This document shows positions 36,060-62,875 of a stretch of 64,000 nt of DNA, piece by piece (the stretch's first letter is position 1; each line of letters opens with the position of its first letter). Source of the DNA: Arbacia lixula (taxonomy: Eukaryota; Echinodermata; Echinoidea; Arbacioida; Arbaciidae); NCBI GenBank assembly GCA_963669155.1, contig OZ022589.1:21313886-21377885 (forward strand), in the 5' to 3' direction. The notes beneath the pieces were generated by a model, which saw only the letters and a program-made list of their open reading frames with translations, was not told the DNA's origin and did no database searches. The position numbers and the translations under genes were made by a program.

Positions 36060-36290
36060 CTGCAATCCCACTTTCTGAATGGCGAGTGAGCGAGTGTGGC
36101 GGAGTGGGCGTGCTTTCAAACAAGCACGTGATCAAGAAATTGTCTAATGAGATTTCGGCGTATCAAGACCGTTGTACAGGCATCGGCTGCGTCCGTCACA
36201 AGTCGTCCATTCATTTACGATTCCGCTGTCAGCGCATGCTCGACCGCTCATGGTGGTATATAAGACGGCGGATCACTCTCTCTATTTACT
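36060..36290 (+). promoter_or_regulatory. TATA-box core promoter of gene B
   Basis: A canonical TATATAAG lies at 36257-36264. An initiator-like TTACTC has its A at 36288, 31 bp downstream, the usual TATA-to-start spacing. Upstream there is a GC-rich motif GTGGGCGTG (about 36105), an E-box CACGTG (about 36125) and a TAATGAG homeobox-type core (about 36145). This stretch is more GC-rich than its surroundings. No TF binding is proven. Assignment to gene B rests on the same strand and on the perfect splice donor 350 bp downstream; the first coding exon is 8.5 kb away. Confidence 0.6.
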
Positions 36291-36637
36291 CGAGGGCTTC
36301 ATCAATAAGTAAGGGCATGAAATGAGAGTCCAGCTGCTCTCGCATGTAATAGCTACATCAACGACAAACCAATCAACTCTAACCGTATTTCCTTCCATCA
36401 TCTCAACCACCGCTCCAAATCACACCATCATCCAGCTGAAATAGACCCCGCTTCCTCCTCGATCGCGTATGATTCTCGTCGCAAAAGCCATCTGCATTTA
36501 TTCATCAAGAAACTTGTTCAAACTCTGACTATCGGGTTAATAAGAGGACAGGACAACTACATAAAAAAGCGAACGTTGTGAATTCAACCCGTGAAGTAAG
36601 AACCGACCCGCCACCCAGTAAGCGCATTTTCATTAAG
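36288..36637 (+). other. Gene B exon 1, 5' UTR (predicted)
   Basis: Predicted noncoding first exon running from the initiator-like A at 36288 to a perfect donor, TTAAG|gtaagt, at 36638. It contains a very short upstream ORF (ATG at 36316, two codons then TGA), so it is unlikely to code for the product. It joins to the acceptor at 45109 across an 8.5 kb intron. The link between promoter, this exon and the coding exons is an inference from strand, order and splice signals only. Confidence 0.5.
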
Positions 36638-36734
36638 GTAAGTTAATCTGTTTGTAAGTTTTGATGGCTATGTGCAGGAGAGCGAAATTTTACCAGGAGA
36701 TGGTGAGCAAAAAAGAAATCACAACAGAGTGAGA

Positions 36735-36777
<43 letters not shown>

Positions 36778-37029
36778 AAAAGCTGGTTAAATCTTGACAG
36801 CTATAAGATTAGTAATACAAAGTTATCTCGCAAGGTGTATGTCATTTCCGAACATAATTACAATGTGACAGAAGTCAAACATTGTGATAATAATAATATA
36901 CATACATATATGATGATAAAATGATTTACTAAATAAAGATTAAAAAGACACATCAGAATGACGCCGAATCGAAGAGTTATACAAGGTGTTAAAAAACAAC
37001 TGTTGGCACCTTTGAAATAAAATTAAAAT

Positions 37030-37505
37030 TCAGTTTCAACTCACATCAAGCTGAAATTGGCACATCATAAATGTTAGGGATGTCAATGTTCTTGCAGACA
37101 AGTTTTGTGACGTTTCATCAATTACTTTTCTTATAATGATCCTTTGACGATTTAATGAAATTTAAATTTTCGACAAATTGGATCTGAATATGTGTGTGTA
37201 TCAGATAGTTCATTCAGTACACAACAATGATTTGTACATCGCAGATGTCAACTTCTTTTCTTCCAGAAGCATCATGCATTATTAATGACAATGTGATGGC
37301 AGTTGCTAGTGGATTGATACAAAATGATATACACAGAAAGTTTAGGTCCGAACATGTCCAGAAGTGAAAATTTAATTGAATATTCCCATGATTATTACAA
37401 GAAAAGTTATCGAAGAAATGTCACAAAATCTGTCTAAAAATTTCGACATCCCTTGACTTCATGATGAGTCAATTTCAGCTTGGTGTGAGTTGAAACTGTG
37501 TTTGT
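37030..37505. mobile_element. Palindromic element, copy 2 (best preserved)
   Basis: CAGTTTCAACTCACATCAAG plus CTGAAATTGGCACATCAT on the left is mirrored by ATGATGAGTCAATTTCAG plus CTTGGTGTGAGTTGAAACTG on the right; the inner pair is TTTTGTGACGTTTCATCAAT / AAGAAATGTCACAAAATCTG. About 475 bp, no ORF. Confidence 0.7.
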
Positions 37506-39261
37506 TTTTTAAGTGTCAAAACGATTGTTTAAACATGCGTATTACAGCGTTTTCCGCTCATGATTAGAATTTTCAAAAGCTCTGAAACTTTCTATATTTC
37601 TGACAATTTTCCGTTAGCATGTTACTCTGTATTAGATCAGTACATATTTCACGACTATTTGAGAAGACATCTCACAAGCAATACTTAAAATATTGTAAAG
37701 GTGTTACAGTCAACAAACATTTCATAAACGATTTCACGACCAGTTGATTTCTCAAATCGAATCCAGAATCCATACATATATTTAAAGCTTCAGAACAAGA
37801 TAGTCAAGGCTTACAACCTAGATCTTTATACAGACCTTAACCAGCACGACGTTTGTAAACACTTCCCCACCATGAACATATTGGAAGGATTTCTTATTTT
37901 GATTATTTACCCTTCGTGTGTTTTGTAACTTGCGCGTAATACTTATTGACAATTTCAAACGTGGTACGCAAATAATTAAAAAAAAATCACACTGAATCCA
38001 TTTTAAGGGCTACTCTACCAATATGACCAGAAATTAAGGTATGCCAAACTACTAAAATATATGTAAAACGATCACACATGTACGATTCTCGTAAACGATG
38101 GACAACCAAACATTGGTATTTTCAAAATTCTCACAACATGATTTTTTTTTACATAAAACGTTTGTATTGTGTATTATGCATGAACTCATGAATTTCACTC
38201 TATATTTCAAATAAATGACTTTTTTTAACAAAGGTTAATTTATCTGGTTTCAACCTCGCTCTCCTGATCAATCGTAAGTCCTGTTTTGGACATAGGTAAC
38301 AAATACAGAAAGACAGAAATTAAATTATAAATTGCAATTGGCATGGGTGTCCCATGCAAAACCATACTTTAAAGCCACTAAATATGATATTGCCACTTTA
38401 ATATATCGTTCAATGTCATGTTGAATGGCCATGATATAGCTTCATACAGCAATCTAAATGCATCCGTACTACATTGTGTAAAATGTAATTGACGTTATGA
38501 ATATGTTGACTTATATTGATGTAATTTAATCGTCCCAATGCCTCAAACCATCTAAAAAACACAACGTATGAGTACTGGCACGTCTTGTACTGAAGTTAAG
38601 TTATGATTAATTGTAACTTGCATTTCAAGCTAATATCTAACGCAACTTGCGTTTAATATTTATCGCACTGGAGTCCCATGCGAGACAGACATAATATAAA
38701 AAGCACGTGCAGATCTGCTGAAGAATGATCCAATCTTGTGTGCCTTTGTAATCATGGTAGGAGTATAATGGTGTTTCAATGATTCTAACGAAGATTCAAT
38801 CCAGATATTGTATGTGTACACTGCTAACAACACTGATATATTCTAGACAGAGCAAATTGAAGTGCCTATAGGAATCAAGAAAGAAGTGATACAAAGAATT
38901 GTTGGATTATTCTCTGAAAAGAGCTGCTAAGAGAGCGAAAGGGAAATGGAAAGTAATAAGATAGAGTAGAGATGAAGAGAATCAGATTATTCTTTCGGAG
39001 ACATTAGCTCTAAAAAGAGCTCTTGGCATGACGGGCTCACATCAATATTAATACAATGCATATAGTTTTAATAATGTTACTATGATCCATCTCAGGCATG
39101 TGTGTATTCCAATGTTTTTTACTCCCCCACCAAACAAAGGAATTCCATAACGCTGAGATTGAAAAAGCTGTCTGCCGGGGAATTTGAATTCGGTACTGCC
39201 GAAATTACTATCGTTTCCATGGAGCAGTAGTTAAGGCAGTTGCATTCAAGACTCGGGCCCT

Positions 39262-39490
39262 GTATCACCAAGATGTTTGTAAGTTACGCATGACTGGTGA
39301 CCTGTTCTTGTGCTCAATGAGATACCCAAACCATTGAGAATCTGATTTGGCACCCAAGAACACGTTACCAGTCGTGCTTAAGTTGTGTGTTACTCAATCC
39401 TATGTATGCCAAACAAATTTCTTCTCTATGAGTTTTGTGTGTATTATTCCTGCGAGTATACAACAATGGCACATCTTGGTGAAAGAAACG
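39262..39490. mobile_element. Diverged relative of the 19818 foldback MITE
   Basis: Shares TATCACCAAGATGTTTGTAA, TTACGCATGACTGGTGA and the center TTGAGAATCTGATTTGGCAC. The right arm is interrupted and closes with CACATCTTGGTG near 39470-39482. Confidence 0.6.
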
Positions 39491-40719
39491 CCACACAGGA
39501 GTTTTAGTAGAATAAACCCCTTCCTCTGCCCGATGAAACGCCCCATATGGCATGTATGGGCGTTGAGTGTATTGAGGGTCGCCCTCTACGCAATGTCTGT
39601 CCTTCGTTAACAGGCAAGGAAGATTCATAGTGTCCTCCTTTCCTGAGTCCTTCTTGAGCGGATTTCCGGATGTGTTTAACCCTCTAAATACCAAAATAGT
39701 CCCATGTCAATTACTAACAGAGTTTATCATCTACGCGGGTGAAAGGGTTAAGCTTAGTTCGAATCACTGTCCGCCAGGGATTCACTTTTTAAGGAATGCA
39801 AATAAAATCTCGTATTGCAGCAGTTTGCGCGACACACCCAAGACGAATGCCCTTCAGTCATGCCAAGTACAATGCAATGTGAGAGCAAGGTCTATTTAGG
39901 CAACGTCGATACGAGTATTTATAGAGTGAAAGGAAATCATGCCATACAAAACCGAAGGTCTTGTGGGAATTCAAACGAGCCAATTAAACGATGACTGACG
40001 GGCAATCATAGGGTAGGGTGGGTGGGATATACAAGGACATACCAAGCAACACTGAGGAAGCGATGGTGGTACGGACAGAGATGGTAATAATGATTGTGAT
40101 TAGCGAAGGGAGGACGATAACGGAGAGGAGGACGAGTATCGCTTAACACGGTAAAGGAGCATGGTCATGCATGATAGTGGCGATATGGTGGACGATGCGA
40201 GGTATATTGATGATAACGACAACGACGATGATAATGACAGCAATGGGAATGGTCGTTATATTGGTGATTGTGATGAGGGTAATCATTGGTAATGATGACG
40301 ATGTTAACAGCACAGAGATGGGGGTAGACAGGAAAGGGAAAAAACCTGTTTAACATCGATACATTAAATCCATTCACTCCTTTTCTATGGAATACATCGT
40401 TCAGTACGTATCCATCTCATGCAGAAAGAGAACACATCCAACACGTATTAGTTCAACTATAAAATGTTAACTAGACATACAAGAGTAATAAAAAGAAGGA
40501 ATCGCTGCGGTTTGACATTGGTGTTGATTACGGAACGCGTTACCATGGCGTAACGGCGCTTCCGTCATCACGGATCCCGATTCGTTCACGCAATCCTGAA
40601 CTGGGAAAGGAATAGGACAATACCTCACTGCAGAACGAATCTGCCATGATGACGGGTAGAGTGATGTTCTCCTTATCCCTAACCCCTACCTTTTGGGATA
40701 GCCCACTATACAGTTATGT

Positions 40720-41066
40720 TCGCTCTTAATAAAAGCAGAAACATATTATTAGTGAAGGTTTGACGAAAATCCGTCAAAGGACAAGAAAGATACGATTGTT
40801 TGAAGTTTTGATTTTGTGACGTCACGTGCGTGATGCGAGATGTGTTGGGTACTATTTTTTGTTTCTCAAAAGGATCATTTTTACCCGTGCATTTGATACA
40901 TCATTAGAAACACGTTTGTACTCACATACCTCTATGAAAAAATATCAATTAATCTCAAACAGAAATTTCTCGTCCTTTGACGGATTTTCGTCAAACCTTG
41001 ACATGTTACTTACATGTTTCTGCTTTTATTGAAAGAAACTTAACTTCAGGGTGGAGTACTCCTTTC
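40720..41066. mobile_element. CRE-containing MITE, copy 2
   Basis: Shares the arms with 6740-7230 (ATTAGTGAAGGTTTGACGAA; TTGACGGATTTTCGTCAAAC) and the core (GTGCATTTGATACATCATTA). Only the left TGACGTCA is kept; the right arm has lost it. Located in gene B intron 1. Confidence 0.7.
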
Positions 41067-41154
41067 AAAGCTTTAAGCGAACTAAATTTAAGTGAGCAGA
41101 GGGTAATGCAACACTCCTCCACACTGTTTCACTAAACGACAAAGCATGAAGAGT

Positions 41155-41215
41155 GACACTGGGAATCGAACCCTTCTCTCTGGCTTGATACGTCACATCC
41201 TTTAACCACGAGGCC
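41155..41215 (-). mobile_element. tRNA-like head of a SINE, minus strand
   Basis: On the minus strand GGCCTCGTGGTTAAAGGATG (A-box region, 41195-41215) is followed by GGGTTCGATTCCC (B-box, 41161-41173), about 35 bp apart as in tRNAs. No complete cloverleaf is apparent. Confidence 0.5.
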
Positions 41216-41399
41216 GAGTAGACGCTTGTAGGTTCGGCGAAACCGGTTCCGATAGAGTGACCTAGAAGCAATTCAAAACCGGCTGAAGATGGTATTAGAC
41301 AAGCGGGATTTAAAAGAGGTTTTCAACATAGATCAGCTACAATCAATCAATCAGCTCATTGAAAATTCCAACGGATGCCACCTCAAGCTTTTTTTAATA

Positions 41400-42490
41400 T
41401 AGGCTTCGTCAGACTTTCAGAAAGCATTCGACTTCATAGAACATACGGACATATTTGATGCTCGAAGAACTATAGGATTTGAAGAAGGTTACATTCACAT
41501 CTTGGAAGACATCTGCACAGATGATACTGCAAGAATCCACATCGATAATGATATTTCAAACGAAGTGAAGATAAATAGAGGTGGCAGACAGGGGGACACA
41601 TTATTACACAAATTTTTCACAGCAGCATTGAATGACGTGTTAAAAAAAGTCCAACCTTGAAGAAAAAGGAATCAACATTGATGGAGAAAAGCTAACTGAC
41701 CTACGATTTGCAGACGATGTGGCACTGATTACAACCTCTGTACAAGATATTGAAGAACAGTTGTGCAGTCTGAACGACTAAAGTAAAAGGGTTGGCTTGC
41801 AAATACATATGGGAAAGACAAAATTCATGACTAACTTTGAAACAGCAGAGGAAATAAGAGTAGACTATCCATCACCAGTTAGAGAAAGTCGACAGTTACA
41901 AGTACTTGGGCCAAACCTTAAAAATGTAGAATAATACAAGATAAGAAATACTGACAAGGATTAAAGGAGGGTGGAGATGTTTTGATATGTACAGTGAATT
42001 TTTAACTGACATGAAAAAACATTCGCAATGAGGAAAAGAATATTTGACCAGCACATTTTAACGACATTGACGTATCGTATGGATCAGAAATCTGGTCTAC
42101 AAGTAAAGAAATATAACATAAAATGAGAATAACACAAAGAGCTATGGAAAGAAGAATGCTCAATTTAACATTACTGGACAAAGAGAATCACACTGACATA
42201 CGGCAGAAAAAGAAGGTCGAAGATATTATTGTACAAATTAAAGAGATGAAATGGAGATGGGAAGGACACTTAAATAGAACACAAGACAACAGATGGAACA
42301 AGAAACTCACAGAATGACAACCAAGAAGAGGCAAGCGAAGAAGAGGTCGACAAAAAGAAGGTGGAGAGACGAAATATCATCATACACAAACAAAGCCACA
42401 TGAAACAGAATGACAGCAAATAGAAGTGAATTGAAACTGATTGAGGAGGGCTTCATCCAACAATGGTTAAACAATGCCTGATGATGATGA
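41400..42490 (+). pseudogene. Non-LTR retrotransposon RT domain and C-terminus, decayed
   Basis: Seen in shifting frames: DFQKAFDFIEH (RT block with catalytic Asp), EVKINRGGRQGDTL at 41560-41605 (template-grip motif), LRFADDVALIT at 41701-41735 (the FADD catalytic centre, intact), then VGLQIHMGKTKFM. Downstream are RAMERRMLNLTLLDKENHT, MKWRWEGHLNRTQDNRW and the GKRRRGRQKEGG tail, ending with TMPDDDD and a GATGAT-rich 3' end at 42475-42490. Stops and frameshifts throughout show an inactive copy. Family: a LINE with a WxWxGH C-terminal domain; the exact clade cannot be fixed by eye. It lies in gene B intron 1. Confidence 0.75.
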
Positions 42491-42547
42491 TCATTGAGAA
42501 TGGCTTGTGCGTGCATGCTAGCTAATGAGCACAGTGTTCAACTCAGT

Positions 42548-42570
42548 CATCATCATTATCAGGCATTGAG
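42548..42570 (-). mobile_element. Short antisense LINE 3' tail
   Basis: CATCATTATCAGGCATTG is the reverse complement of the CAATGCCTGATGATGATG tail that ends the LINE at about 42490, about 60 bp away. A very short, independently inserted or inverted tail. Confidence 0.4.
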
Positions 42571-42599
42571 CACGACCGTGTCTGTGACATAAAGTGTTA

Positions 42600-42835
42600 C
42601 TTATATGCATTAGGTGATAAGCATATTTAGGACAATTTTGACAAGTAATTGAAAATAAGTTACAACTCGAATGAAGCAGACATGTTCACATCATAGAGTA
42701 CACGTTATAGTTAGAAACAGGTTTCGTGACATTTCGTCCATTATCATTATAATATTCGTCAGAATGTGTAATGAGATTCTCACTTTTGGACATACGTGTA
42801 TTTAGACTTAATGTGTGTGTAAGTTTATTTTACCT
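42600..42835. repeat. Half copy of the palindromic element
   Basis: GTTACAACTCGAATGAAGCA, then CAGGTTTCGTGACATTTCGT, follows the left-arm order of copies at 29240 and 37030; the right arm is missing. It abuts the LINE tail ending near 42490. Confidence 0.45.
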
Positions 42836-43857
42836 TATCGCGCGTCATTGAGGCATTCTTTGCACACGAAATACACACAATTCCGGAAGGAACGTTATCT
42901 CTTCGGCGAACATTGGGTTAGGAGCATGACTCGAACCTCAACTTTCTCTCAACGTGCTTGACTTCTCCCCGTCGATGATCTACTGGAGATGAAGTGTGCT
43001 CGATACTAGAGCTAGAGTCTTTCGATGATCAGGTTCAGGGAGTCGCACTGCGGCCACAGCGGCGAAGATAAATAGCTCCCCAAACCCGAATCAGCTCAAG
43101 TGTCAAATGCAAGATTAGGTGTATCCGTTTTGCTTAATATAGAGTGAGGAGATATGGGACATTCTCTGCTATTTATTCCCTTTTTGTTATTTGCGTGCGG
43201 GGGTCAAGAGGTTCATTCGTAGAAGTGTTTTGACGTAATCGCGCTTTTTGACATGCTTGACGGCATTGCGTAGAAGCGTTGATGGCGCGTTTGCCCGTAT
43301 TGTCCACACGCTCCCTCCAAATTTTCTTCAATTAGCTAATTAGTGCTGTGTTCGCGCCCCTTCTCAACACCCACGCGCGCTCACACACATACACTCATAC
43401 ACATAAACGCTTACACAAACGTGCACCGACCTACTCACTCACACACACTCGTACACATACACTTGTATAAGAGGTTAACATTTTCATGATTTTTGTTAAC
43501 ACTTTTGAAAAATGATGCAAACAAAGTTACAGCGTATTTGTTTCAACCTTCATTTCTTTGGAAGACCTTGGCTAGGTTCCAACTTGGTGATGTAATTATG
43601 TTTTTAATCAATGATTGTAATTATTTCCCCATCTTTTTATAATGTACATTTATCTAATTGAATAAAACGAAGGGCATCAAATACATTACTCTCATCACTT
43701 ACGCACAGCCAATACATCTTTCCTTTTAAAACTGGTTTGTAAACGGTGTATGACTTTGTGTATGACTTTGTGTAGGCCTAATTTGCGTAATTTGCGTAAA
43801 AGACTCACCCGTGTCATCGTATATTAAATGATACACAGCTCTGTGAACACTTTGACA

Positions 43858-44020
43858 CCAGGGCTATGTTGCATATAGGTTTTCAATTATTGTAACTTAC
43901 CATCAATGGTAACTACCATGTGATCAGGTGCAATAATGAGAGCTCATTGGCTGTTGCCGTGCTAGTTACCATTGATTGTAAGTTACAATAATTGAAAACC
44001 TATCTGCAACATGGCCCAGG
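43858..44020. mobile_element. CCTGGGCCATGTTGCA palindromic MITE, copy 3
   Basis: Ends CCAGGGCTATGTTGCATA and CTGCAACATGGCCCAGG. It shares GTAACTTACCATCAATGGTA with the copies at 4252 and 4409. In gene B intron 1. Confidence 0.7.
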
Positions 44021-45111
44021 ATTGTTAGCTTAAGTATCCTTTGTGCTCGATTTAACACCAAGAGTCTCAACTTCAGTACTCTTTGTGCAACATCTGACAA
44101 CAATGCTGTTGAATGTAACACATTCGGTGACACCAGGAGTTTTAGCTTTAACGCCCTTGCCTCTCAACCTAACACCATGAGTCATAGCCGAAGCTTTTAT
44201 TTGTAGCCAGCTAGATATGACATAATGGCACACTTAAGAAAAACGCGCATGGATCGTATTCGGAAAGCTCTTAATTTTGACACGCGCAAGGAATCATCAC
44301 TTCGCATCGCTGTCATGGCTGTAAGTTGTCGAAATGAGAGAGAGGAGATGACACACTCTTCTTTCATCGAGGCGTGCGAATCTTTGGGCGATATTCTGGA
44401 GAAAAGAGCTTTCCGACATACCTCATATTTCGCTTTTGAAACTCTGCAGGGATAATGATTAGACGGCCCGTGGATACGTATCATTATCGCCCACTACTAC
44501 TCTCTTAGCGGCTGCCAATCATGTCAAAGCAATGCACTCAGCCAGGCGCAAATGATAATTGCGCATTTTGATCAGGTGTTGGATAATCTAATTTGTCAAA
44601 TTTCCCACTTTTAACTCTTTGTGTGCCACATGAGTCGGGTTTTTTTTTCTCCAAATGTAAGACATACAAATTCATCAGAGCAACAGTTTATCCGGCACTC
44701 ACAAAGCTAATGAGATATGCTTGTCAGTTCCTATTTTACGTAGACGTTATACGTCAGGGACATTATTTCTTATTTGGTATATAAATGATTTACGAACAAA
44801 ATCGTAGTGAAGCCAATAGGAGGGCAATATCACATCTTATTGTATGTATTAATATGAATGTATGTGTATGTATGAATGTTCTGAGTTAGGAATTAATAGG
44901 CCGCTGTGCACAGTTTGGTTGAAATGTAGCTCTTTTTTTAAAAAGGGTCATTTGGCAAAATCAATCAAATGACAACGGCATCAGTACATACACAATCAAA
45001 TGTAATTGGTTCAATAGAAAACAGTCAGAAATTATTTGTTGATGTAGAATAGAAATGGTATAATTGAGGACATCACTCACTTTCTCGTTCTTCTTCAACC
45101 CTTCTCTAGTG

Positions 45112-45276
45112 ATGGAGTCCCAACATGTAACAATATTCGCCGTTTGCCTCACGCTTTCGGTTCTCATGGCAACCGCGTCCGCCTCTGCGTTCCCTCCTCT
45201 GGAGAGTCGGGATGAGAACGGTGACGTCATCAATCTGACAGATGGTTTCGAAGACGGCATGGATCTTTCATTGAGG
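45112..45276 (+). CDS. Gene B exon 2: signal peptide and N-terminal propeptide of a neuropeptide precursor
   Basis: Seen: a strong pyrimidine tract and acceptor cttctctag end at 45109, ATG is at 45112, and 55 codons end at donor TTGAGG|gtaagc (phase 0). Residues 1-26 are a classical cleavable signal peptide: hydrophobic core at residues 7-19, then ATASASA with small residues at -3 and -1, and likely cleavage before Phe27. The remainder (27-55) is acidic with an Asn41-Leu-Thr sequon, typical spacer propeptide sequence. Without splicing the frame runs to a stop at 45396 with no recognisable content, which supports the donor. The product is secreted. The frame continues in phase 0 into the exon at 53358. 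Confidence 0.65.
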
Positions 45277-46889
45277 GTAAGCGAATACCGCCCCAGGGTG
45301 GGCTACCATTATCCAGCTCAACAGCTTGTGTGCCTCGAGGCTAGCCTTCGGGTACAGACTGCGGGGCTCCGCATTTTCCGTACACACCTGATATAATAGA
45401 GTAGCTATTGCTTTCTGTAACATTATATGTGAGGGAGATACTGATGACACGGAAGATTATAATGGGATCACTTATTGCAAGTGCGACACTTGCAGTGGTC
45501 CTTTAAGTTTTCTCATACATGTATAAGCCTTGTATTACAACACGTGATTTGAATTAGATATTATAATTGCAATCAATCGCAAGTCCTGCGTTTTATTGCA
45601 ACACATCGTATCAAAAGTCATCACTGCTATCTATTGCAAGTCGTAGCATATACATTTTGCATTCGGTCGGATTGTTACGATATATCCAAGGTACGAATAA
45701 TATCAATTACCGGTATCGATCGATCCCGATTGCAACTTCTTTGAGATACGGATGTACGATTGGTACATGCTATAAAGTCTAGATCGTAGGCTAAGGAGAT
45801 GGGGCATCGATTTCACAGTATTATCTATGGACCAACTTGATACAGCTAGCTTAGTTTTTAAAGAGGAATATATAGAGGTGCCGTATGTCATTCTGGCATG
45901 GCTGACGTTTGGATGTAAGGTTATTCTCACTTGTCAGCCAAAGAAATCAGTCTGCCGAAAAAAGAACGAGGGGAAAGGGAATACTTCTAGATGAACTTGA
46001 GAATCCAAAGTTGGGTAACATATCGGTTTTCAGGTAGCAAAATATCACAATTTTGTTATTCACTTTCGATCGTTTGCCCGTGGTATGTGAGAATGCCGGT
46101 GAGTAGACAGGGTAGAGTGACTCATTACTCAAAGCCACCCGGGTAACTGAAGAAATAAGCCAGAAGTCAACACGGGTAGTAGTCCATTTTGTTTAACAAG
46201 AACTCAAGGCGCCATCAGTAAGGAACAATTTTCTTCTTGACATTTCAAGATCGTATTCCAGTCGCTTAGCCCATCTATCTACCCCCTTCTTTCCCTCAAC
46301 GGTTTCCACCCATCTATCTATTTATGTATTGAATATTGATCTATCTTTCTATCGTTGTAGAAATTCTTCCAGAAATAGTGCAGACTGTTTTTGTTTAATA
46401 AGAACTCAAATTACATGCTGTCTTTTAGTCGCGTCGTACGTCGTGTGAAGCTGACTTTGGACGTCAACAAGTGCTAAACTGCTAGAGGATAGGTGAAGGT
46501 TAATTTCACCACTGCCATTTGGAATTAGACAATAAACATCGCTGCCGTCTGTAAGGATGTTAAAGCTGCGTCATGTGTAAAGCATTAAGCTGTGCAATGG
46601 AAAATACAGCTCCCGGTAGCTATAAAGAAAACCTACAAGATGGAGGGATTTAGAAATGTTCCTCTCTCAGAATGTAGCTCGTTGCAATTTGAAGATGAAG
46701 GAGGACATGTATGGGAGGAATACAACCACGCACACTGTGTATTGGAAGTTAAAAGGAAAATCAGAAAGAAAAAAACATACACAATAGGTCATATTGATAT
46801 ACCGTGTGTCTTAAAAAAACTATACACTTTTGAAATGGCGGCCAAATAAAAAAAAATATACGATTCGGGGGGAGGGGGGGGGGGGGCTT

Positions 46890-47372
46890 ATATGTATGCA
46901 TAGCTTATGGACTCAACTTTCATTTGACACGAAAACCTCCGAAAATAATTCATGCTTGGATGAGCACTACTCACTTTAGGAAATGGTATGAAAAATTAGG
47001 CTGCGCAGGAATTAACTTTCCAAATTTGCGAGAGGTTGAATATTGAATATTCAATTATGGGTTGTCGAAAAAAGAATGCCAAAGATGCCAGCAATGTATT
47101 CTTTAGGTCAATGGCTAACCTAAAGAATAGGCAGCCAGTAGCTGAGACATTCCTTTTCTTTTTCAACAAAATGTATTTGAATAATGAATATTGAATTGAA
47201 TAATCAATTAAATATTCAATATTCAATCTCTCCCAAAATTGGAAGGCTAATTCCTGCGCAATCTAATTTTCATATCCTTTACAAAATTGATCAGTGCTCA
47301 TTCAAGCAAGAATTATTTCTGGACGTTTTGGTGTCAGATAAAAGTTGAGACCATAAGCTATCCATACATGTA
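46890..47372. mobile_element. 483-bp foldback element with 170-bp arms
   Basis: TATGTATGCATAGCTTATGG, TGCGCAGGAATTAACTTTCC and GAATATTGAATATTC on the left are mirrored by GAATATTCAATC, GGAAGGCTAATTCCTGCGCA and CATAAGCTATCCATACATG on the right. The center is itself palindromic (TATTCTTTAGGT ... ACCTAAAGAATA style). No transposase. Confidence 0.8.
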
Positions 47373-51546: not shown

Positions 51547-51735
51547 CCTCTGTTAGTTTAACCTATTGTGTGTCAAACAATATGCTGCTCTGTGGAAAGT
51601 GTGCGAAGATGCATTAATACGGTAAAAAGAGTACGAAGAGGGGCGTGAATGGGCTTGTGTGTGGGCTTGTGTGTAGGGTGAGAGGAGGTGTGTGTGGTTC
51701 TTTTGGACACTGGGTGGTTGTTGGGTGGTGATTGC

Positions 51736-52085
51736 GGTCATATGGCAAGCCGTTTTAATATTTATTGCTATTTCTTGATATCAAGAATTGCCCTTGCTTA
51801 ACTACACAAAACCATTTCTTGATATCAACAATTCGAATTCTTGATATCAAGAAATGAATTCTTGATATCAAGAAATTAATTCTTGATATCAAGAAATTAA
51901 TTCTTGATATCAAGAAATCGAATTCGTGATTTCAAGAATTCGACTTCTTGATATCAAGAATGCGAATTGTTGATATCAAGAAATAGTTCTGTGTAGTTAA
52001 GCAGTGGCAATTCTTGATATCAAGAAATCGAATTCGTGATATCAAGAAATACAAATAAATGTTAAAACGGCTTGCAATACGGTCA
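51736..52085. mobile_element. MITE built from a tandem array of a GATATC palindrome
   Basis: Outer inverted ends GGCAAGCCGTTTTAATATTT and AAATGTTAAAACGGCTTGC. Inside are eleven copies of TTCTTGATATCAAGAA or one- to two-base variants, spaced about 20 bp in the middle, with GCTTAACTACACA / TGTGTAGTTAAGC flanking the inner block. Confidence 0.8.
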
Positions 52086-53165
52086 CAACAGAAGGGTACT
52101 CTGGTGTGGGGGTTGTGGGGTGGAGGTACAGTGCCGGTCATTGGTGCCGTACAAGTAGGTTGCACAATCGCATTGTCCTGCCTCTCTCTCTCTCTGTGAC
52201 TTCTCTTCTCTTCTTAGGTTCTATTTTACCTCTTCTACCCTCTGTGATCTCATCCTCCCCTGTTTTCTCTCTCTTTCTTCTCAAACAATTGTGCAATACA
52301 TATTTTAACAGTTATAATTGTTTGCCAATGTATTATTTAAGCCATTGTTTACTGTATTCATGTTTGTAACTGCCCGAAAGCAAATTTTGTATATTTTTAT
52401 ACATGGCAATCAATTATCTTGAATCTCCTGAATCTTGAGTTAAAGAAATGTGCGCTAAATCGTGATGACCTTTTTTTTTTATATAGGCATATAATGATTG
52501 TTATAATTGTTATTATCGTTACGTTATTAGTTTAGAAGGAATGATACCCCTGTTTAAAATTAATCTCATCTGTGGTAGATAAATCCGCTCAGATCCTACG
52601 CCATGCATGCATACAGCAACAAGGTGCTTGACACACAACTTGCTGTTACACTGATCATGGTGGGCCAAATCGCCACATTGTGCTAGTTTGGTTTACGTAA
52701 TGACACATGTTTCACTTGTTTTAATACTTTGCGCTTATTTCACAATCTTCTCTGGATTATCATTTTGAAGAAATGTGCGATGTGGTCGTTGTATTATCGC
52801 AATTGGCTACCCATAGTTGCATAGTTACGCACCACGCACTCTGATTATGTTAATGAGCTGCAGCACCCGGATTAATGGAGTACACCGAGAATATTTTTTA
52901 TTTGACTGATCTAAATCTACACCATTACAGTCGTGATCTTCATTACTCATTCTTTTCTTCGAAAAAAATAGCACGTTAACTTTTCTTGACTTGATCGCTA
53001 CTGTTCAGAAACAACACGATACTATTACTTCACATTGACGCTTTCTTTGATAACAAAAAAGGAATTATTCAATTCCACAGAACATGTGCTTGTATTAATA
53101 CATCAATTACATAGCACTCAATTTTTTTGCAACTTTGGATCATACAACGGTTGTTTATTCCAGCC

Positions 53166-53176
53166 ACGCACGCACG

Positions 53177-53214
<38 letters not shown>

Positions 53215-53270
53215 TACACATACACATACACACACACATACACATACACACACACATACACACACACCTA
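53166..53270. repeat. (AC)n microsatellite with CACATA variants
   Basis: Starts as ACGC, becomes pure AC, then ACACATAC. It ends about 90 bp before gene B exon 3, so the ORF that spans both is partly an artefact. Confidence 0.9.
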
Positions 53271-53357
53271 CGTATACAGTTTCAAAGCATACCAAAGAAT
53301 AAAATCATGGTTACAAATTCTGAGATGAGCGTTTTGCCTTTGGTCTGTCTTTTGCAG

Positions 53358-53525
53358 GATTTGGCGTTAATGAGGCTTCTTAAGTCATTACACACGCCCG
53401 ATTTGGACACTGACGACAGTGAAAGCTTTGAGCCCACCCTAGCTAAGCGGAGCAGAAGTGGGAGAAAACTGAGGTTCTGTATGGATGTCATCAGGAACAC
53501 ATGGCGTCTATGTAGGAGCAGCAGG
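53358..53525 (+). CDS. Gene B exon 3: cysteine-loop neuropeptide, candidate melanin-concentrating-hormone type
   Basis: Seen: acceptor ctgtcttttgcag ends at 53357, and 56 codons end at donor AGCAGG|gtaaga (phase 0). Residues 56-84 are acidic spacer; Lys85-Arg86 is a prohormone-convertase site. The peptide then reads SRSGRKLRFCMDVIRN followed by TWRLCRSSR, with Cys96 and Cys107 able to form a ring. Knowledge: vertebrate MCH is a C-terminal Cys-ring peptide with Arg-x-Cys-Met at the start and Tyr-Arg-Pro-Cys at the end of the ring, and MCH-type precursors are reported in echinoderms. Here the matching features are Arg-Phe-Cys-Met and Trp-Arg-Leu-Cys. Oddities: ten residues between the cysteines against eight in vertebrate MCH. 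Ten is the somatostatin spacing, but the Phe-Trp-Lys core of somatostatin is absent. A Gly90-Arg91-Lys92 motif could give a second cleavage. If the donor is not used, the frame ends at TGA 53604-53606. Confidence 0.62.
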
Positions 53526-53859
53526 GTAAGACATGAGCTAGCGCTTCTTGGTTTCTTTAAAAGGAATGTACTCTACTGGGAAGACAGAAAGCCTTCGAAA
53601 GGGTGATCATAAGCAATCTTCTTGCCAATGGTCTTAAATTCATGTATTGTCCATTTTAGAAACTTGTTGAAAGTTATTTGTCGTATTTGCCACATTTGTG
53701 GTAATTAGTAATTAAATCACAAATCCTCAAAATGTTTGCCCCGAACATTCTTTTTGTTGTTGTGATCCAATCACTAATTACCATGAGGATTTTTGTCTTC
53801 CCATTACCGTGTAATCCCTTTAATAAATGTCACCTCTTTATCATGTTTTTCGTGGTTTC

Positions 53860-54720
53860 TTCTCTAGATATTCCTCACTTGTGTCTTTCCTTGTGATTCA
53901 TTTCTTAGTTCCCTCTTGATCTTGATTTCTTCTTTGGTTTTTCCTCACAGATTTGTCCTTCCTTTTTCTTTCTTTACGAATTGTCTCATCTTCATATTTT
54001 TTTTTTGTGTGTGATTTCTTCTCTGGCTTATCCTCACAGATTTGTCCTTCGTTTTTTACTTCCTTTCTTACTTGTCTCCTTATCATCATGTTGTTCTTGA
54101 TTTGTTATTTAGCTATCTCTTATCGTGGATTCTTCTTCGGGTATTTTTTTTACAGTTTTGTCCTTCTCCTTATTTCTTTCCTAGTTGTCTCCTCTTAATA
54201 ATGTTATTCGTGTTTTCATCTCAGGAAATTACTCTTAGACGTGTCCTTCTCTTTAAAATCAGTGTATTCAATAGTTTTCTCCTCATAATCATGTTTTTCT
54301 GTACTTTTCTGTGTTTTCATTCCGATAATGATAATTGTTTTCCTTAGCCTTCACTCAATGCTTGTTTTCATTTTTTTTCTTTATCCCCCTCATCCCATTT
54401 CCATTCTTTGTTGCGTCATTCCGCTCGTGCATTCTCCTTAAGCTATTTCTCAGCCATTTGTATCCTCCGCCTTCTTTCCTTACTCCGTCATTGGTTTTCT
54501 CTTTCATTTCATCAATTATTCTTTACTTATTTATTAATAATATTTGTCTTTAGCTCTTTCCCCATCTTTCATTATTTCTTCTTTAGCTGTCTCTTACTTA
54601 GGCCCACATGTTCTTTCTTAGCTATTTCTCACCATTTTTGTTTTTCGAATAAATTCCTCTCTTTTATCCCACTTATTTCGTTCTTGGTTGTCTCTTCCGG
54701 ATTAAGTTTTTGCCCGAAAT
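53860..54720. repeat. Pyrimidine-rich degenerate tandem repeat
   Basis: CTCACAGATTTGTCCTTC occurs at about 53944 and 54033, with TTGTCTC-, TTTCTTC- and TAATCATG-containing variants onward. Strong strand asymmetry (T/C rich). Several overlapping Phe/Ser/Leu ORFs here are low complexity. Confidence 0.55.
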
Positions 54721-57399
54721 GTTTATGCCGTTACGAATACGATCAACTTACTTAGAGAATTTATGATCTACATACATAATCTTGGGGTTATTGTGTAAGC
54801 AACTATTTTAGATGCATTAAAGAAGTCTTCTGCATTAGTTTTCGAAGGCAGACTTCCCCCCTGGGCAGTGTGACATTTCATTAGAAAGTGAAAGGTCCAG
54901 AAGAGTATGACAAAATATACCGATGCAAAATCGCATAATCTTTATAATTGCGTTGTATATTACGATAAAGGAGATCATATGTTAAATTATATACCGCTCT
55001 CTCGTAAAAGATTCGTTTCCTTTGCTTGTGGCGGTTTCTCCTTTGGGGGAAGATTAGATTTTTTTTTATTTGCACTTAGGTAATTGGACAGTGCCTTGTC
55101 CAGTAAATATACATATCAAAGTTAATGACGGTTTTCTTTCCCCATTACGCATGATACAAAAGAGAAAACAGGGTTTATCCCATTTTTCGCAAACTTTGCT
55201 AATATGGTAAATTTCATATCAAATACATGCTATGCAAAGAAAACTTACAAAACTGCCCTAAATATTGACGTATCTTCAGGATTAATGTAAATGAACTCCT
55301 CTTTTTGATGGAGAGATATTATGATTCATAAACATCTTCTAAACAAACCCTACACAAGTCCTCCTATGTATTTTGTTACATTTAGCATTAGTGTATGCTT
55401 CATTCTCTCTCCACCCACCTCGTTCTTATATCCATTCACAATATACAGGTTCATGAATATGCCTATGTTTTAAGTGTTTTTCAGAATCATGTTTTGTCAA
55501 ATCAGCTTAGGACTAGTTTGGGCAATTTCTGTCTTCAAAATAGATTATTCGGAAGGTTTACGTCCACACATAAATACGTAACCGCGGTATCAAATGCTAC
55601 CCATTGAAAGGTAATGTTGTTACTTCGTATACCTAATCAATGGTCCTAAACAATAGTCGTCAATATTCTTCTCATAAAACATCATGAATACGGTACTGAG
55701 TTTAAAAATATGTTCCAGGATATTGTTCAATTATGACATGCGTGAACTGATGACGTCACAATTTCATGATGACGTCACTTGACCTGTGACACAATAGACA
55801 TATTGTACTTCTGTTATGTATGACGTCTGTAATTTGCCACATTTTACACAGCTAGTAAAGGCGCTAGGCCGATACCATACACTGACTACTGTCATTATAG
55901 TTGTAACAGAATCATCCTTTCTCAATTCACGGAGAAATTGTTAAACCTATTGCATTCTGAATGTTTGATATTTGGAGCGCAGTTATTTCGGGATTTTTAG
56001 ATTAACATCAAATTTACTGTTACCCTTCAGTACCTGCCACTTCAGTGCCTTCAAGCTGTATTTACGTAATAACATTCACAGAAGCAGCGTCATGACGCTC
56101 ATGTATAATGTTATCATGAAACGATTTTTTTTTTTTCAAAATAGATCGCAACTCGAGACAGAGTGATGCTAGCATGGATGTATTGTAACACTTGAGGACT
56201 CGCCACTCCAATGCCAATGATCAACATGAAAAAGAACAGCTAGTGTTTGGAGAGTACACTTCAGAAAATTCATTTCAAAGTTTATATAATTTTCTTTCTG
56301 AATGATATTTTTTCAACAGGCGAACAATCACAACCAAGTACATTTTAACCATATTATAAAGTAGATCACATGCTGTTGATGGGGGAACAGTGCGGAAACG
56401 ATGACGTTTTTCCCCATTAAAATACATATCAGTAACAATGCAATAAAACATAGAAAGAAAGAACGAAATTCGGAAAGAAAGTCGGAAGGACGAAGAAAAC
56501 TTAAAGACATTTCTTGTTTAATGGGTTGACCTTTAGAGGAATCTTAGAAATAGATGCTGGGCTAGATGTCGACGCCGGCCAGGGCGACTTGGCGAGGAAG
56601 AGTGGGTGTATATAGTGAGAGGAAGTGCGATTCATCTCAGGCTAGTTTCCGCTACGTCAAACTCAGAAACAGCGATGACACAAACCACGCAACACTTGTA
56701 ATTGCAGTCCTTAATGATCAGGAGTACCCTCTCTCCCTCATAAACGCGTTCGACCTCCAAAGCGGGCATGGGGTGTTCCCGGAAATGTAGAGGGCACGGG
56801 TGGTTGGATCGTTCGTCATCAATAATTATAAGGCGTCTCATTCCAACTAATTATCTTGAAGATGGAGTGATGATGGATAAAGATGTTAGCCGAGGGAATG
56901 GATATCGATGTTCTAGATCCTAATGACACGTCTGATTTTCTCTTATCTCATTATTTGGAGGGAGAGGGGTGAGGGGTATAGGAGGCGGAGGGGTAAGATA
57001 CTGGCCTAACGGAACGGCAAGGACAATACGCTTCTGATTCAAGTCGTTTATCTTCTATCAACACTTACTGTGCAATTAACTCTCTAAGCAGACGTTGACG
57101 TATCATAGTTGATCAGGCTTCATCAGGATTCACCCCTCTACAGCGCAAAATTTGATCACTCTGTGCTTCTGAGCCCTTCCTCGAACTGAGAAATATACCC
57201 CTTGCGGCTAACTGTGACACGTTGACGTTTGTTTTTATGGTTGGCTTTGTTAACAAATTCATGTTATGCGCTGTGACTGTCTCTTTTTGACACCTGTTAT
57301 AGCCGTCTTTCTCATTACAAAATTGCGTTCTGTTGTTTCTAACGTTAAACGTATTGCAAGCTAAGTGCTTTGGTACTTGCCACTATTGGCACCTATCCA

Positions 57400-58310
57400 G
57401 TGGCGTAGACAGGTTCATACACCTGGGGGGGGGGGGGGAGGGGGGGGGTGACTGGGCTGCCAACGCTCGAGAGGGCGCGAAACGACGGAGCCGGGGGAAG
57501 GGGGTGTCCCCCCTCCCACGGTAGGGAGCTTTCGCAATTTTGAACTTCAAATCGTGCAATCTGATGCTTACTTAATGAAGTAAAATAACACACACAAGCG
57601 TAATTGTTTATGCCGTTTTAACAGTACATTTTGGCATTTCTTGTGCGATTTTTAACGTGTATTCACTCAGTCATGTTACATCTTTGTCAAAATATCCAGT
57701 TGTATTTTTTCACAAAAATAAAGGGTTTTTAAAAAGTTTCAAACTCAAGAGGGATGAGTATTTTGTAAACGGGGCTCACTCAACCAGAACAATGGGTTAA
57801 ATGTCGGGATAGGTGTAGGTACATCGAGAGATGAATGATAACTAATGAAAGGACATTAATTATGCACCAGAAGTGAAATTCATCAAAAATTGATATGACA
57901 GAAACCTAAAATTACCCTTGTGACATTTGAAAAGTTGCATTTTTGCCTCTTAAATTTGCCCACTCACGCATGACTCATTGGATTATTGTGATTTTCACAC
58001 AGTAGTCAATGAGATGAGAAACAATCCTGCTAAATTATTTTGCCCAAAACCTCTTTGATAAAAAGTTATGCAATTCTGCTTAATGAGGACAAACCACAAA
58101 TAACCACAATTTTTTTCTTTTTTACCGTCTGAATTGGCTTTCACCGTGTGAATGCGGCTAATACCAATAAACACAATTACAATAATGATGGGGATTATAT
58201 TATAAGTACGCAAATATCATTCCCAAATGTGGGGGGGGGGGGGAGGGGGGATGTGAGGTGAGGTGGGGGGATGCATCCCCCTTATCCCCCCCCCCCCCCC
58301 GTTGTCTACG
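57400..58310. repeat. Composite repeat related to 21240-22463
   Basis: Bounded by AGTGGCGTAGACAGG plus G-runs and, inverted, C-run plus GTTGTCTACG. The interior 57735-58080 contains TTACCCTTGTGACATTTGAA, AATTTGCCCACTCACGCATG and TTTTGCCCAAAACCTCTTTG, homologous to the right arm of 21240-22463. Confidence 0.6.
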
Positions 58311-58800
58311 TTGTCTAACCAATCAACAAATCAGTCAATCATCCAACCAACCAACAAACAAATCACTGTATCTAACAAACAACCAAACAACCACCTAACC
58401 AATCAACAAATCAGTCAGTCATCCAACCAAACAACTAATCAACCAACCATCTAGTTAATCAATTAACCATTCAACCAAATCAACCAACAAACCAATCAAT
58501 CAACAAACCAACCAACCACCCACCCAACCAACCAACCAACCAACCAACCAATACTAGTTCACCAATCAACCATTCACCCAAATCAACCAACAAACCAATC
58601 AACCAACCAATCAACCAACCAATCAACCAAGCAATTAGCCGAACCAACCAATCAACCAACCAACCTATTAATCAACCAATCAACCACACAACCAACCAAC
58701 CACCCAACCAACCAACCAACCAACCAACCAACCAACTAACCAATCAACCAACCAACTAACCAACCAACCAACCAACCAACCAACCAACCAACCGGCCAAC
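58310..58800. repeat. CAAC/CCAA-rich degenerate tandem repeat
   Basis: About 490 bp of AACCAACCAATC-type units, with a near-perfect (CCAA)n at 58700-58792 and diverged units at the left. Almost free of G on the plus strand. Confidence 0.85.
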
Positions 58801-59256
58801 CAGCTGATGTATCATTAACAGCATAAACATATACCTACAAACTCGTACAAATGCAAGTTCCAACGCTCTCGAGTTAGTTATAAATCAGACACATAAAGCA
58901 CAGACCCCTGGCAATAGAAGATGAAAATAGAATAGGCCTAGTAATAGCTAGGATGCTTGAGAATGATAGGAGGTAGCTACGCGTTCTTATTAACGAATTC
59001 GTGACTTATACATAAACCATTTTAAATTGCGGGTGTCGATCGCGGCAACAATAATTGCATGCTCAAACTAATGAGGGAACAAGAGCCCCGAAGGTTCCAA
59101 TTATCCAGCCTTTTGAAGCTTTAGGGAGCTCCTCGGGTCATGAGAATATAGGTCTTCACGTTCGGCACACTCCCCAGCTGGTTTAACTCTTTGCGCGTCA
59201 TTGGGCAGTTTTAGATATATCACACACGCGTTATACGTATGGAGCGGCAGCTCATT

Positions 59257-59345
59257 TGGTACTCAAGTGGTTAACGCGTCATGGTTATCCATCAGAACGT
59301 ATCGCTGGCAGTAGGCCGTGGCTTTCGGCACGTTCGAGCCTGGCC
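59257..59345 (+). mobile_element. tRNA-like head of a SINE
   Basis: A-box-like TGGTACTCAAGTGG at 59257 and B-box-like GTTCGAGCC at 59332, the two RNA polymerase III promoter elements, but 75 bp apart and without a foldable acceptor stem. This fits a tRNA-derived SINE rather than a functional tRNA. Confidence 0.45.
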
Positions 59346-61002
59346 CCACGTACATGACGTTCAGCAATTCAATCGGGGGGATTTTCTCCCTTGGTATTTG
59401 CAAGAGGACGTCACTTCTAGACCTCGAGTCCAGACCCTACCTTTGATTCCTTTGCTGTAACCCCCAACCCCCGCGGTCGTTTACCATCTCATAGCGTCAA
59501 AGTAGGTGGGTGGTCGATGATCAGGGCGTTCGACACGTAACCTTTCCTGCGATCAGGCTGATAAATCTTTGGATACTCAACACTTGTTTTCACGTTTCAC
59601 GTTTCATCCCTGACCTACAAAATAAATAACTTCCTTGAGCTTGCCGCAGTGAACATATTAAAGATGCTAGCACTATATATGATCAAAGGACTTCACAATA
59701 TGCCGTTATGAATATCATAAACTTGAAATGAATGCGTGGTAGCCTATTCAAATTATGATCGGAACGGGATTTAAATTCATAACTCGGTAGGGATTATGAT
59801 TTATATTTTGTGATGTATAACTCAAAGTAATATCAGTACGATGGTAGGAAATAATTTGGAAATTGAAATCCATAATTATTATTACACTCCTCTGAGGGAT
59901 GGTCATTCGTGGCTCGCCTACGCTTTCTTAGGAATACGATATTAGTTGGGTCGTATTGGACAGATCTTCATGAAAATTATTTTTCAAGATTACCTTGATA
60001 TGCATGATAGTAGGGCTCTATTTTCGCTGCCTTGCTTTGACAAAATGCCTCACTGTGGGCTACTCAACGTTGCGATATTACGGTAACATGTGTTCTTATA
60101 TTTCTTGCTAGTCTCATGTACATCACATCTGATGTTACTTGGTCTTTAGCCCTAAAGCAGAGACCAGCGAATCTTGTTCGACGACGATGACCATAAATTA
60201 TCACCAGAATACAACCGTTTAAACTAAATAAAGATATCACATTATCATGTCAGTACCACTGCAAGTGAAATAGGAAATTCACTTACGTACTGGCAGTGGG
60301 CATGACAGGGAGTGTCAGAACAAAAAGAGGACGTGAAACTCGATTCATAAAGAAAGAAGAAGATTGATGGTTTCAAATTATGGTGAAAATGGGGAAACTT
60401 ATGACGCACTCGTGGTGAGATAATTTCCTCCGATTGCATAAAATTGTTTTGCTATATATGTCCACCAATATTACAAATTGCTATTTATATGCTTTGATGA
60501 TGGTGGATGAATGACGTACGACAGTTTTATTTTATTACTGATGTAATGTTTTCTGTTGTATTTTTCTACCTATGGTTATCCTTGTATTCATCATGTTCAT
60601 CAAGTCTTTTTTTTCTGACTTAATCATTCCGCACATTTCCTCGTCGACTCTCTGTCTCTGCATCTGCGTAGAATATATAAAGATATCAATATATAAATAT
60701 ATTATATGATGTAATATAACCTTATTTCATATCATAGATTATATGAGGTTGCGATGGCGCTGAAAACGTATATGTAATTTGTTTGTGTGTTTATATACTT
60801 GATGAAGGTCTAAGGCCGAATTGATCAACTTTCCTTCTCCGGCGTCTAAATTAGTCCATTTGTGTTTAAATACATCACTTCATTTTTCATATTGCTAAAT
60901 GTATTAAAACATTTTCTTTTTCCTTCTTATTTAATTTATGTCTGTGTCTCTCTCTCTCATCATCTCCCTTCACTGTGTCAACCTTTCTCCTTATACACCC
61001 TG

Positions 61003-61009
<7 letters not shown>

Positions 61010-61083
<74 letters not shown>
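61010..61083. repeat. (CT)n microsatellite
   Basis: About 75 bp of CT with one CCC interruption, at the truncated end of the minus-strand LINE fragment. Confidence 0.9.
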
Positions 61084-61149
61084 TCGTTCTATGTATTGTC
61101 TCCCCCTCTCTCTATCTTTTATTATTATTATTTTTACAAGAATTTTCGA

Positions 61150-62010
61150 AAATGATGTAAGCAGAGAAATATGCCTATAAAATGAGGCGACTAACTTCTT
61201 GTTCGTTTGTGGGGGTAAAAACTAAAGATATAGGAATAGGATCATGTAAGAAGGTATGAAACGGTTTTTTAAGGGGTGCTATTTCTTTCGCCAAATCGGG
61301 ACCTATATTTACAAAATAAAAAACTCCTCAGCTATGAGTTGACTATCTTTTTCGAATTCGTCACCTACTTTAATTTGAGTAATGCTCCGATATTTCCCTC
61401 TTTTGAGAACGTTATTTATAACTTTCCTAGTTTCTTTTATATTTTCATGGATTTTTTTTTAATCGCATTGCGAACTATTCTTTCTTTTTATTACGCAAGA
61501 CATTTGTAAGGATGTTTTTTGTAATCAGCGTAAGATTTTTTGTTGGAGTCGGTAGGGTCCTTTTTATACTTAAAAAATAATGTGTTTTTCTTATTTATAC
61601 AGTTTAATAATGACTTGGATACCCATAGCTGCCTTGAGACATCCCTATAGTTGATTATTTTCGGAGTAACTGAATCATTGTAATGATTATTAAATAGGGT
61701 CAGAAAATTGTTTAAATAGTAATTTACGTCATCTTCTTTAAGTACACTACTCCAGTCCGTAGATATTGATTTATTCTTAAAGAAGTTTCTATCTACATTA
61801 TTAATCTTATCTATATTTGTAAACGGATTCGATTCAAAAGGTTATGGGATTGAAGTTAAATGGGGAAATGATCACCGATGTCCGAAATTACAATGCCAAT
61901 TTTAAAGGGTGGTAAACAGTTGAAGAAAATATTATCAATTGAAGTAAATGAGTGATTAGTGTGCCTTGTTGGTTTTGTAATAAATGGGAGGAAGAATTGT
62001 GAGGACATGA
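61150..62010 (-). pseudogene. LINE endonuclease C-terminus and endonuclease-RT linker, 5' and 3' truncated
   Basis: The reverse complement reads HSFTSIDNIFFNCLPP, then KIGIVISDIGDHFPI (SDHxP block, last endonuclease motif). It continues with a linker containing SRQLWVSKSLLNCINKKN, YKKDPTDSNKKSYADYKNIL and RKVINNVLKRG, and after a frameshift FVNIGPDLAKEIAPLKKPFH, the usual segment just before RT. Several stops and at least one frameshift are present. It stops near a (CT)n run, before any RT catalytic block. It lies antisense inside gene B intron 3. Confidence 0.65.
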
Positions 62011-62567
62011 GGTCAAGAAAGAAATTATGTCAACGTCTTGCCATTCTTTGAAAAATGGACATACCTGTGGTTATTAAACATAAATAGAGAGACAGACATA
62101 CATACATACAAACAGACAAATGTAAGGAATGAGAGATACATTGAAGTATGTTCGCACAGGCACTCAGTGCTCCATCCACAGCCTGCCATGGCTCACCCGA
62201 GACCGAACTGGTTAAGACCTTTATCGGAACCATAACTATGACCAATCAACATCATTGTTGCGTGCACCTTTTGTTCAAAAGACTGACAAGTAACCAATCT
62301 GAATTCGTCTTTCGAATTTACAATTGATCGCAAATCTTTGTTACTTGGCCCGAGTCATCCCTTTATACTTGTTTTCACTTGTTGAATTAACCATATTTTC
62401 TTGTTGTTCACCGACATTTTAGCCCTTATATCGATTCACTATGCTCTGTTTTTGTCCACATTAAAATCGTAGCACTAAATTCAATTTATAATATTGCTGT
62501 ATTGTCCACCGAAAATTGTAGCCCTAAATTTACTCCTTTGCGTTTTCTTCTTTCGTTTTTTATACAG

Positions 62568-62576
62568 AGCAACTGA
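62568..62576 (+). CDS. Gene B exon 4: last two codons and stop (predicted)
   Basis: A long pyrimidine tract and acceptor (cgttttttatacag) end at 62567. Joined in phase 0 to 53525 it adds Ser-Asn and then TGA at 62574-62576, placing the Cys-ring peptide at the very C-terminus of a 113-residue precursor, as in known MCH precursors. The evidence is the acceptor quality, the phase and the polyA signal 274 bp further on. The exon is too short for composition to help, and another acceptor could be the true one. Confidence 0.4.
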   Translation, partial: SN

Positions 62577-62875
62577 TGTCTTCCCGCCTCTTGCATCCTA
62601 CACACGTCGGCCTAGACTCCACACACACCCAACCAGCCTGACAACACAAGAACAGGATCCGTCTTTCATCCGTGAACACCATCATGATTCCCCCCCCCCT
62701 CTTTCATTCGTTATCTCTGTTCTCACTCTTCCTTTCTCCGCCCTCCGTCCCATTCGCCACTCACATAGACAAAAAGGCACCGACATCACAGCGACTTCAT
62801 CCATTAGTATTGACATGGATATGTGTAGTAAGCCAACGGCTAATGTAAGAATAAAGACCACGTAAAGCTACGCTA
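62577..62875 (+). terminator. Gene B 3' UTR and polyadenylation signal (predicted)
   Basis: A canonical AATAAA is at 62850-62855, with expected cleavage roughly 15-25 bases later. The UTR is about 300 bases and contains a short C-run. The assignment depends on exon 4 being correct. Confidence 0.35.

Follow-up and report, generated by a model that had tools for sequence, protein, structure and literature searches.

A candidate orthologue of the echinoderm MCH-type neuropeptide precursor gene in the sea urchin Arbacia lixula

We analyzed a 64,000-nucleotide stretch of the genome of the sea urchin Arbacia lixula (assembly GCA_963669155.1, contig OZ022589.1, positions 21,313,886 to 21,377,885 of the forward strand; hereafter the window). 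An earlier note made from the letters of this stretch had proposed a neuropeptide gene resembling that of melanin-concentrating hormone (MCH), and our results support this reading. The window very probably holds the A. lixula orthologue of the echinoderm MCH-type precursor gene, whose predicted four-exon transcript would encode a secretory precursor of 113 residues with a lysine-arginine (KR) cleavage site and a cyclic C-terminal peptide of 27 residues. We consider the gene an orthologue of the known MCH-type precursors because the peptide presents all nine of the published diagnostic positions that were checked and because their motif is found once in 607 Mb.

The family itself is already known, since the first echinoderm members, one from a sea urchin among them, were published in 2016 (PMC4772807). 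Semmens et al. (2016, PMC4772807) described the precursor of the starfish Asterias rubens and recognized two relatives of it, a hemichordate protein and the sea urchin protein Spnp14; an ophiuroid paper adds a further member (PMC5627052), and a review states that protostomes had yielded neither MCH-type precursors nor receptors (PMC5860471). None of the literature matches listed was an MCH paper on A. lixula, in searches of which no query joined Arbacia with MCH and which left subscription journals mostly uncovered. A text search with fragments of the peptide returned four papers that are unrelated judging by their titles.

The predicted mature peptide, SRSGRKLRFCMDVIRNTWRLCRSSRSN, extends over 27 residues from the KR site to the stop at the C-terminus of the precursor. 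Its cysteines at residues 10 and 21 are separated by ten residues and presumably form a disulphide. The published MCH-type peptides share two cysteines, of which the first is followed by methionine or isoleucine and the second has a basic residue in the penultimate place before it, and those of starfish, sea urchin and acorn worm contain two extra residues, DW or DV, relative to vertebrates (PMC4772807). The A. lixula peptide presents methionine and then DV after its first cysteine and a basic residue in the penultimate place before the second (CMDV...RLC). The peptide AmMCH of the crinoid Antedon mediterranea has its cysteines at positions 11 and 22 and conserved residues at 13 (D), 19 (W) and 20 (R), and eleutherozoan peptides carry R at AmMCH positions 6 and 23 (PMC9793003). 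Counted from the first cysteine, the A. lixula peptide presents D at +2, W at +8, R at +9, the second cysteine at +11, and the two eleutherozoan arginines at -5 and at +12, straight after the second cysteine. The nine positions can be summarized as C-[M/I]-D-[V/W]...W-R-x-C-R with an R five residues before the first cysteine. The layout of the precursor is also that of echinoderm MCH-type precursors, with a signal peptide (by hydropathy) at the N-terminus and the MCH-type peptide at the C-terminus after the dibasic KR.

A similar general architecture would be expected of a precursor of the somatostatin/allatostatin-C (SS/ASTC) type, which also ends in a two-cysteine peptide, and genes of this type possess a phase-0 intron in their N-terminal part that is common to them and the A. 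lixula gene (PMC7536072). This intron is only a hint because phase 0 is common. In a comparison based on the MCH-diagnostic positions and on intron phases, the presence of all nine positions argues against an SS/ASTC identity, as does the C-terminal intron of echinoderm SS1-type genes, which is in phase 1 (PMC7536072) whereas the second coding intron of A. lixula is in phase 0. We regard an SS/ASTC-type precursor as very unlikely and retain the MCH-type assignment.

The strict motif C[MI]D.{5}W[RK].CR occurred once in the six frames of the window and in none of 120 windows simulated with a first-order Markov model. Over the genome (606,990,701 bases in 590 contigs), a 35-base pattern for [M/I]-D-x5-W-R-x-C-R yielded 13 matches compared to 8 for its backward control, and a Cys codon directly preceded the pattern in a single one of the 13, which lies in exon 3 of the MCH-type gene. 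The exon 3 peptide likewise had one genomic match at E of at most 0.001, namely itself, in a search that scores only its best candidates. In contrast, a looser pattern consisting of a dibasic site followed by C[MI]x9C appeared in 49 of the 120 simulated windows and three times in the real one (both strands together). Because this loose pattern is common, our claim is based on the residue-level match and not on the ring alone. The loose pattern is also what would favor the reading that open frames and splice-like sites of noncoding DNA came together here by chance, a scenario that we find extremely improbable considering that the strict pattern was absent from the simulations and found once in 607 Mb and that the signal exon, the splice sites and the terminal exon all fit in phase.

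The sequence gives good support to the four-exon structure, in which exon 1 and all joins are predicted. Re-reading and scoring located the splice sites, the KR pair, both cysteines and the closing Ser-Asn-stop on the forward strand, at the places and in the order given in the earlier note, and joining the exons computationally reproduced its 113-residue precursor, with phase-0 joins between exons 2 and 3 and between exons 3 and 4 and with Ser-Asn-stop at the end. Splice sites of the forward strand of the window were scored using generic matrices not trained on the A. lixula genome. Among 3675 GT sites, the donor of putative exon 1 (AAG/GTAAGT at 36638), which the earlier note had called perfect, ranked first, and those of exon 2 (AGG/GTAAGC at 45277) and exon 3 (AGG/GTAAGA at 53526) ranked 11 and 19. 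Among 3531 AG sites, the acceptors at 53358 and 62568 ranked 4 and 31. We also scanned positions 20000-53300 for first coding exons with an ATG, phase 0, at least 30 amino acids, a donor score of at least 6 and, close to the start, a hydrophobic segment free of charged residues whose mean hydropathy is at least 2.0. Four rows were returned over these 33 kb and they correspond to two sites, 45112 (with two donors) and 34874/34880 (two ATGs and one donor), of which 45112 is the more hydrophobic. At the other end of the coding sequence, 26 other residues would take the place of Ser-Asn if translation ran on past the exon 3 donor (the frame is open to 53606), and the join to exon 4 therefore fits the published peptide lengths better.

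Upstream, the octamer of the putative TATA box has one copy on the forward strand of the window, where the looser TATA[AT]AA[AG] has 10, and the observed-to-expected CpG ratio is 1.15 across 36000-36640, which overlaps putative exon 1, compared to 0.80 for the whole window. The 3' end of exon 4 was placed at about 62870 because of the AATAAA at 62850; since this hexamer has 77 copies on the forward strand, it is weak evidence when taken by itself. The positions of all these features are given in Table 1.

The introns also contain repeated sequences. Intron 2 includes a tandem array of 10.8 copies of a 22-bp unit (51816-52050) and intron 3 an array of 4/8-bp (CCAA) units (58317-58802). A reverse-strand frame at 61491-61841, inside the third intron, resembles a LINE-type retroelement by eye and had no Pfam match.

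We then consider the receptors. Human MCHR1, in a version that agrees with PDB 8wss at 271 of 272 residues, gave 141 matches in the A. lixula genome. For each of the three best, the top PDB match was a somatostatin receptor, and a further one, L024, matched the prolactin-releasing-peptide receptor in PDB. A tree of 18 rows was built from 12 urchin proteins, representing 12 loci of the 141 matches, and 6 human proteins, with opioid, urotensin, galanin and kisspeptin receptors left out. One urchin protein (L021) grouped with SSTR1/2/5 with a support of 98/97. Two others, L020 and L022, paired with a support of 92/92, which is below the 95/80 mark, and fell outside both human MCHR1/2 and SSTR1/2/5, the branch of L022 being long. 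Having two candidate receptors is plausible because A. rubens possesses two MCH-type receptors (PMC7536072). L020 and L022 are candidate receptors for the MCH-type peptide.

Several observations weigh against the orthology or against parts of the gene model. The comparison with the family used published position-by-position descriptions and not aligned sequences of the relatives. Pfam returned no match to the precursor at E up to 10, and PDB returned nothing meaningful (best E 1.2). The two candidate receptors do not group with human MCHR1/2. The acceptor of exon 2, at 45110, is moderate (rank 156 of 3531), and the precursor exceeds those of A. rubens and A. mediterranea by 22-25 residues. These last two points would also be compatible with a correct peptide in a partly wrong gene model, in which exon 1, and perhaps also exon 2 or 4, would be part of a different transcript or joined in some other way; exon 1 in particular has no coding sequence and is tied to the gene only by its donor and the TATA box. 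Opposing this scenario are the high ranks of the three donors, the fact that only one other, less hydrophobic site for a phase-0 signal-peptide exon was found in 33 kb, and the six residues that the exon 4 join leaves past the second cysteine, compared to seven in A. mediterranea. We judge such an error in the model unlikely, and its probability overlaps with that of the MCH-type orthologue, which we continue to favor.

Table 1. Features of the candidate MCH-type precursor gene (positions in the window) and of the two candidate receptor genes (contig and positions)
Feature	Position	Strand	Remarks
Putative TATA box TATATAAG	36257..36264	+	Read in the sequence; promoter function predicted
Putative noncoding exon 1	36285..36637	+	5' end estimated ~28 bases past the TATA start; 3' end at donor AAG/GTAAGT; joining to exon 2 predicted
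Exon 2	45110..45276	+	Begins with 2 untranslated bases; 55 codons from the ATG at 45112, for the signal peptide and the N-terminal propeptide
Putative signal peptide MESQHVTIFAVCLTLSVLMATASASA	45112..45189	+	Hydropathy scan; cleavage point predicted by the -3,-1 rule
Exon 3	53358..53525	+	Acidic propeptide, Lys-Arg site, cyclic MCH-type peptide; 56 codons
Predicted KR prohormone cleavage site	53445..53450	+	Precursor residues 85-86
First 25 of 27 residues of predicted mature peptide	53451..53525	+	Cys codons 53478-53480 and 53511-53513
Exon 4	62568..62870	+	Ser-Asn-stop (62568-62576), then 3' untranslated region; 3' end estimated
AATAAA polyadenylation signal	62850..62855	+	Hexamer read in the sequence
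Candidate receptor gene L020 (G-protein-coupled receptor)	C3:20912007-20912822		Seven-helix part within one open frame, 409 amino acids
Candidate receptor gene L022 (G-protein-coupled receptor)	C20:8171975-8172727		Seven-helix part within one open frame, 390 amino acids

The reading frame, the quality of the splice sites and the agreement with the diagnostic residues were read from the sequence; the working of the gene is inferred, from its expression and splicing to the processing of the precursor, the disulphide, the receptor and the release from neurons. By analogy with the family, the signal peptide would direct the precursor into the secretory pathway, where a prohormone convertase would cut after the KR and free the last 27 residues. 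Amidation is not expected because the C-terminus of the peptide lacks a glycine. The disulphide between Cys10 and Cys21 would close the ring, and the oxidised 27-residue form has a calculated average mass of 3283.78 Da. Neurons would then release the unamidated peptide, whose targets would be rhodopsin-type G-protein-coupled receptors of the MCH/somatostatin-receptor group. The peptide contains an internal RK at residues 5-6, and cutting at this site could leave a 21-residue form that begins with LRFC.

Outside the gene, the window presents an open frame of 435 residues, closed by a stop and rich in Asp and Glu, at 18132-19439 on the forward strand. An acceptor-like TTATTTTCAG occurs among its first 12 codons, and Pfam gave nothing for it at E up to 0.1; the frame resembles the terminal exon of a gene for an acidic protein. 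A PHD-finger frame lies at 23246-23629 on the forward strand (Pfam PF00628, E 6.6e-06). Downstream of it, a stretch at 24920-25336 on the same strand has no Pfam match and contains NKAPGPDGIP, which we take to be a reverse-transcriptase-like motif; the two are probably pieces of a LINE-type element. A tandem array of 4.0 copies of a 64-bp unit (98% match) spans 27222-27477. ARAGORN found no tRNA in the window, and no Rfam family reached its gathering score there. In the 10-kb flanks, no gene was recognizable by eye among the open frames of at least 90 amino acids (18 in L003 and 8 in L002), which were inspected without a Pfam run. Elsewhere in the genome, contig C590 (15,740 bp) is the mitochondrial genome and has ND1, ND2, 16S and COI in succession on one strand, COI being named by Pfam and the other protein genes from their translations. 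This order fits sea urchins or sea cucumbers, which group together by gene order, and not starfish, which differ from sea urchins by a 4.6-kb inversion of the tRNA/16S/ND1/ND2 block (PMC3308324).

These results provide a candidate structure for the complete gene of an MCH-type precursor in an invertebrate; the gene covers 26.6 kb, has introns of 8-9 kb and contains no long open frame. A known deuterostome signalling family now reaches another sea urchin order, Arbacioida, and two candidate receptor genes can be named in A. lixula itself. The picture of the MCH-type family is unchanged by this gene.

The precursor had been described in the earlier note as having the architecture of vertebrate MCH precursors, and this holds in part. 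As in vertebrate MCH (PMCH), a C-terminal two-cysteine peptide follows a dibasic site, with Met or Ile after the first cysteine and a basic residue penultimate to the second (PMC4772807, PMC6901935). The likeness does not extend to ring size or intron position: vertebrate rings have eight residues between the cysteines, two fewer than the ten of A. lixula (PMC4772807), and codon 4 of mammalian MCH is split by an intron (PMC6901935), whereas the last coding intron of A. lixula falls in phase 0 after residue 25 of 27. Some teleost copies of MCH are intronless (PMC6901935). One could speculate that A. lixula has kept an old layout, with phase-0 introns flanking the peptide exon, that the N-terminal phase-0 intron common to it and the SS/ASTC genes reflects a single ancestral gene of the MCH and somatostatin ligand families and that the intron within mammalian MCH is derived, but we consider this scenario unlikely.

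Among echinoderms, the precursor of A. mediterranea (AmMCHP) has the same spacing of 11 between its cysteines and presents D, W and R in matching places. It differs in its lengths (91 residues with a peptide of 29, compared to 113 and 27 in A. lixula), in the seven residues, not six, that follow the second cysteine, and in the V/L and W that crinoid peptides carry where A. lixula has the eleutherozoan R and R (PMC9793003). The A. rubens precursor ArMCHP (KT601706) shares the signal peptide, the dibasic site and the C-terminal two-cysteine peptide, with 88 residues for the precursor and 28 for the peptide compared to 113 and 27 (PMC4772807). Finally, Spnp14 of Strongylocentrotus purpuratus (GI:109402760) also belongs to Echinoidea, and its sequence is part of the alignments behind the published conserved positions (PMC4772807, PMC9793003), although the most distant sea urchins compared, in a set that includes S. 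purpuratus, are ~179 million years apart (PMC11310861).

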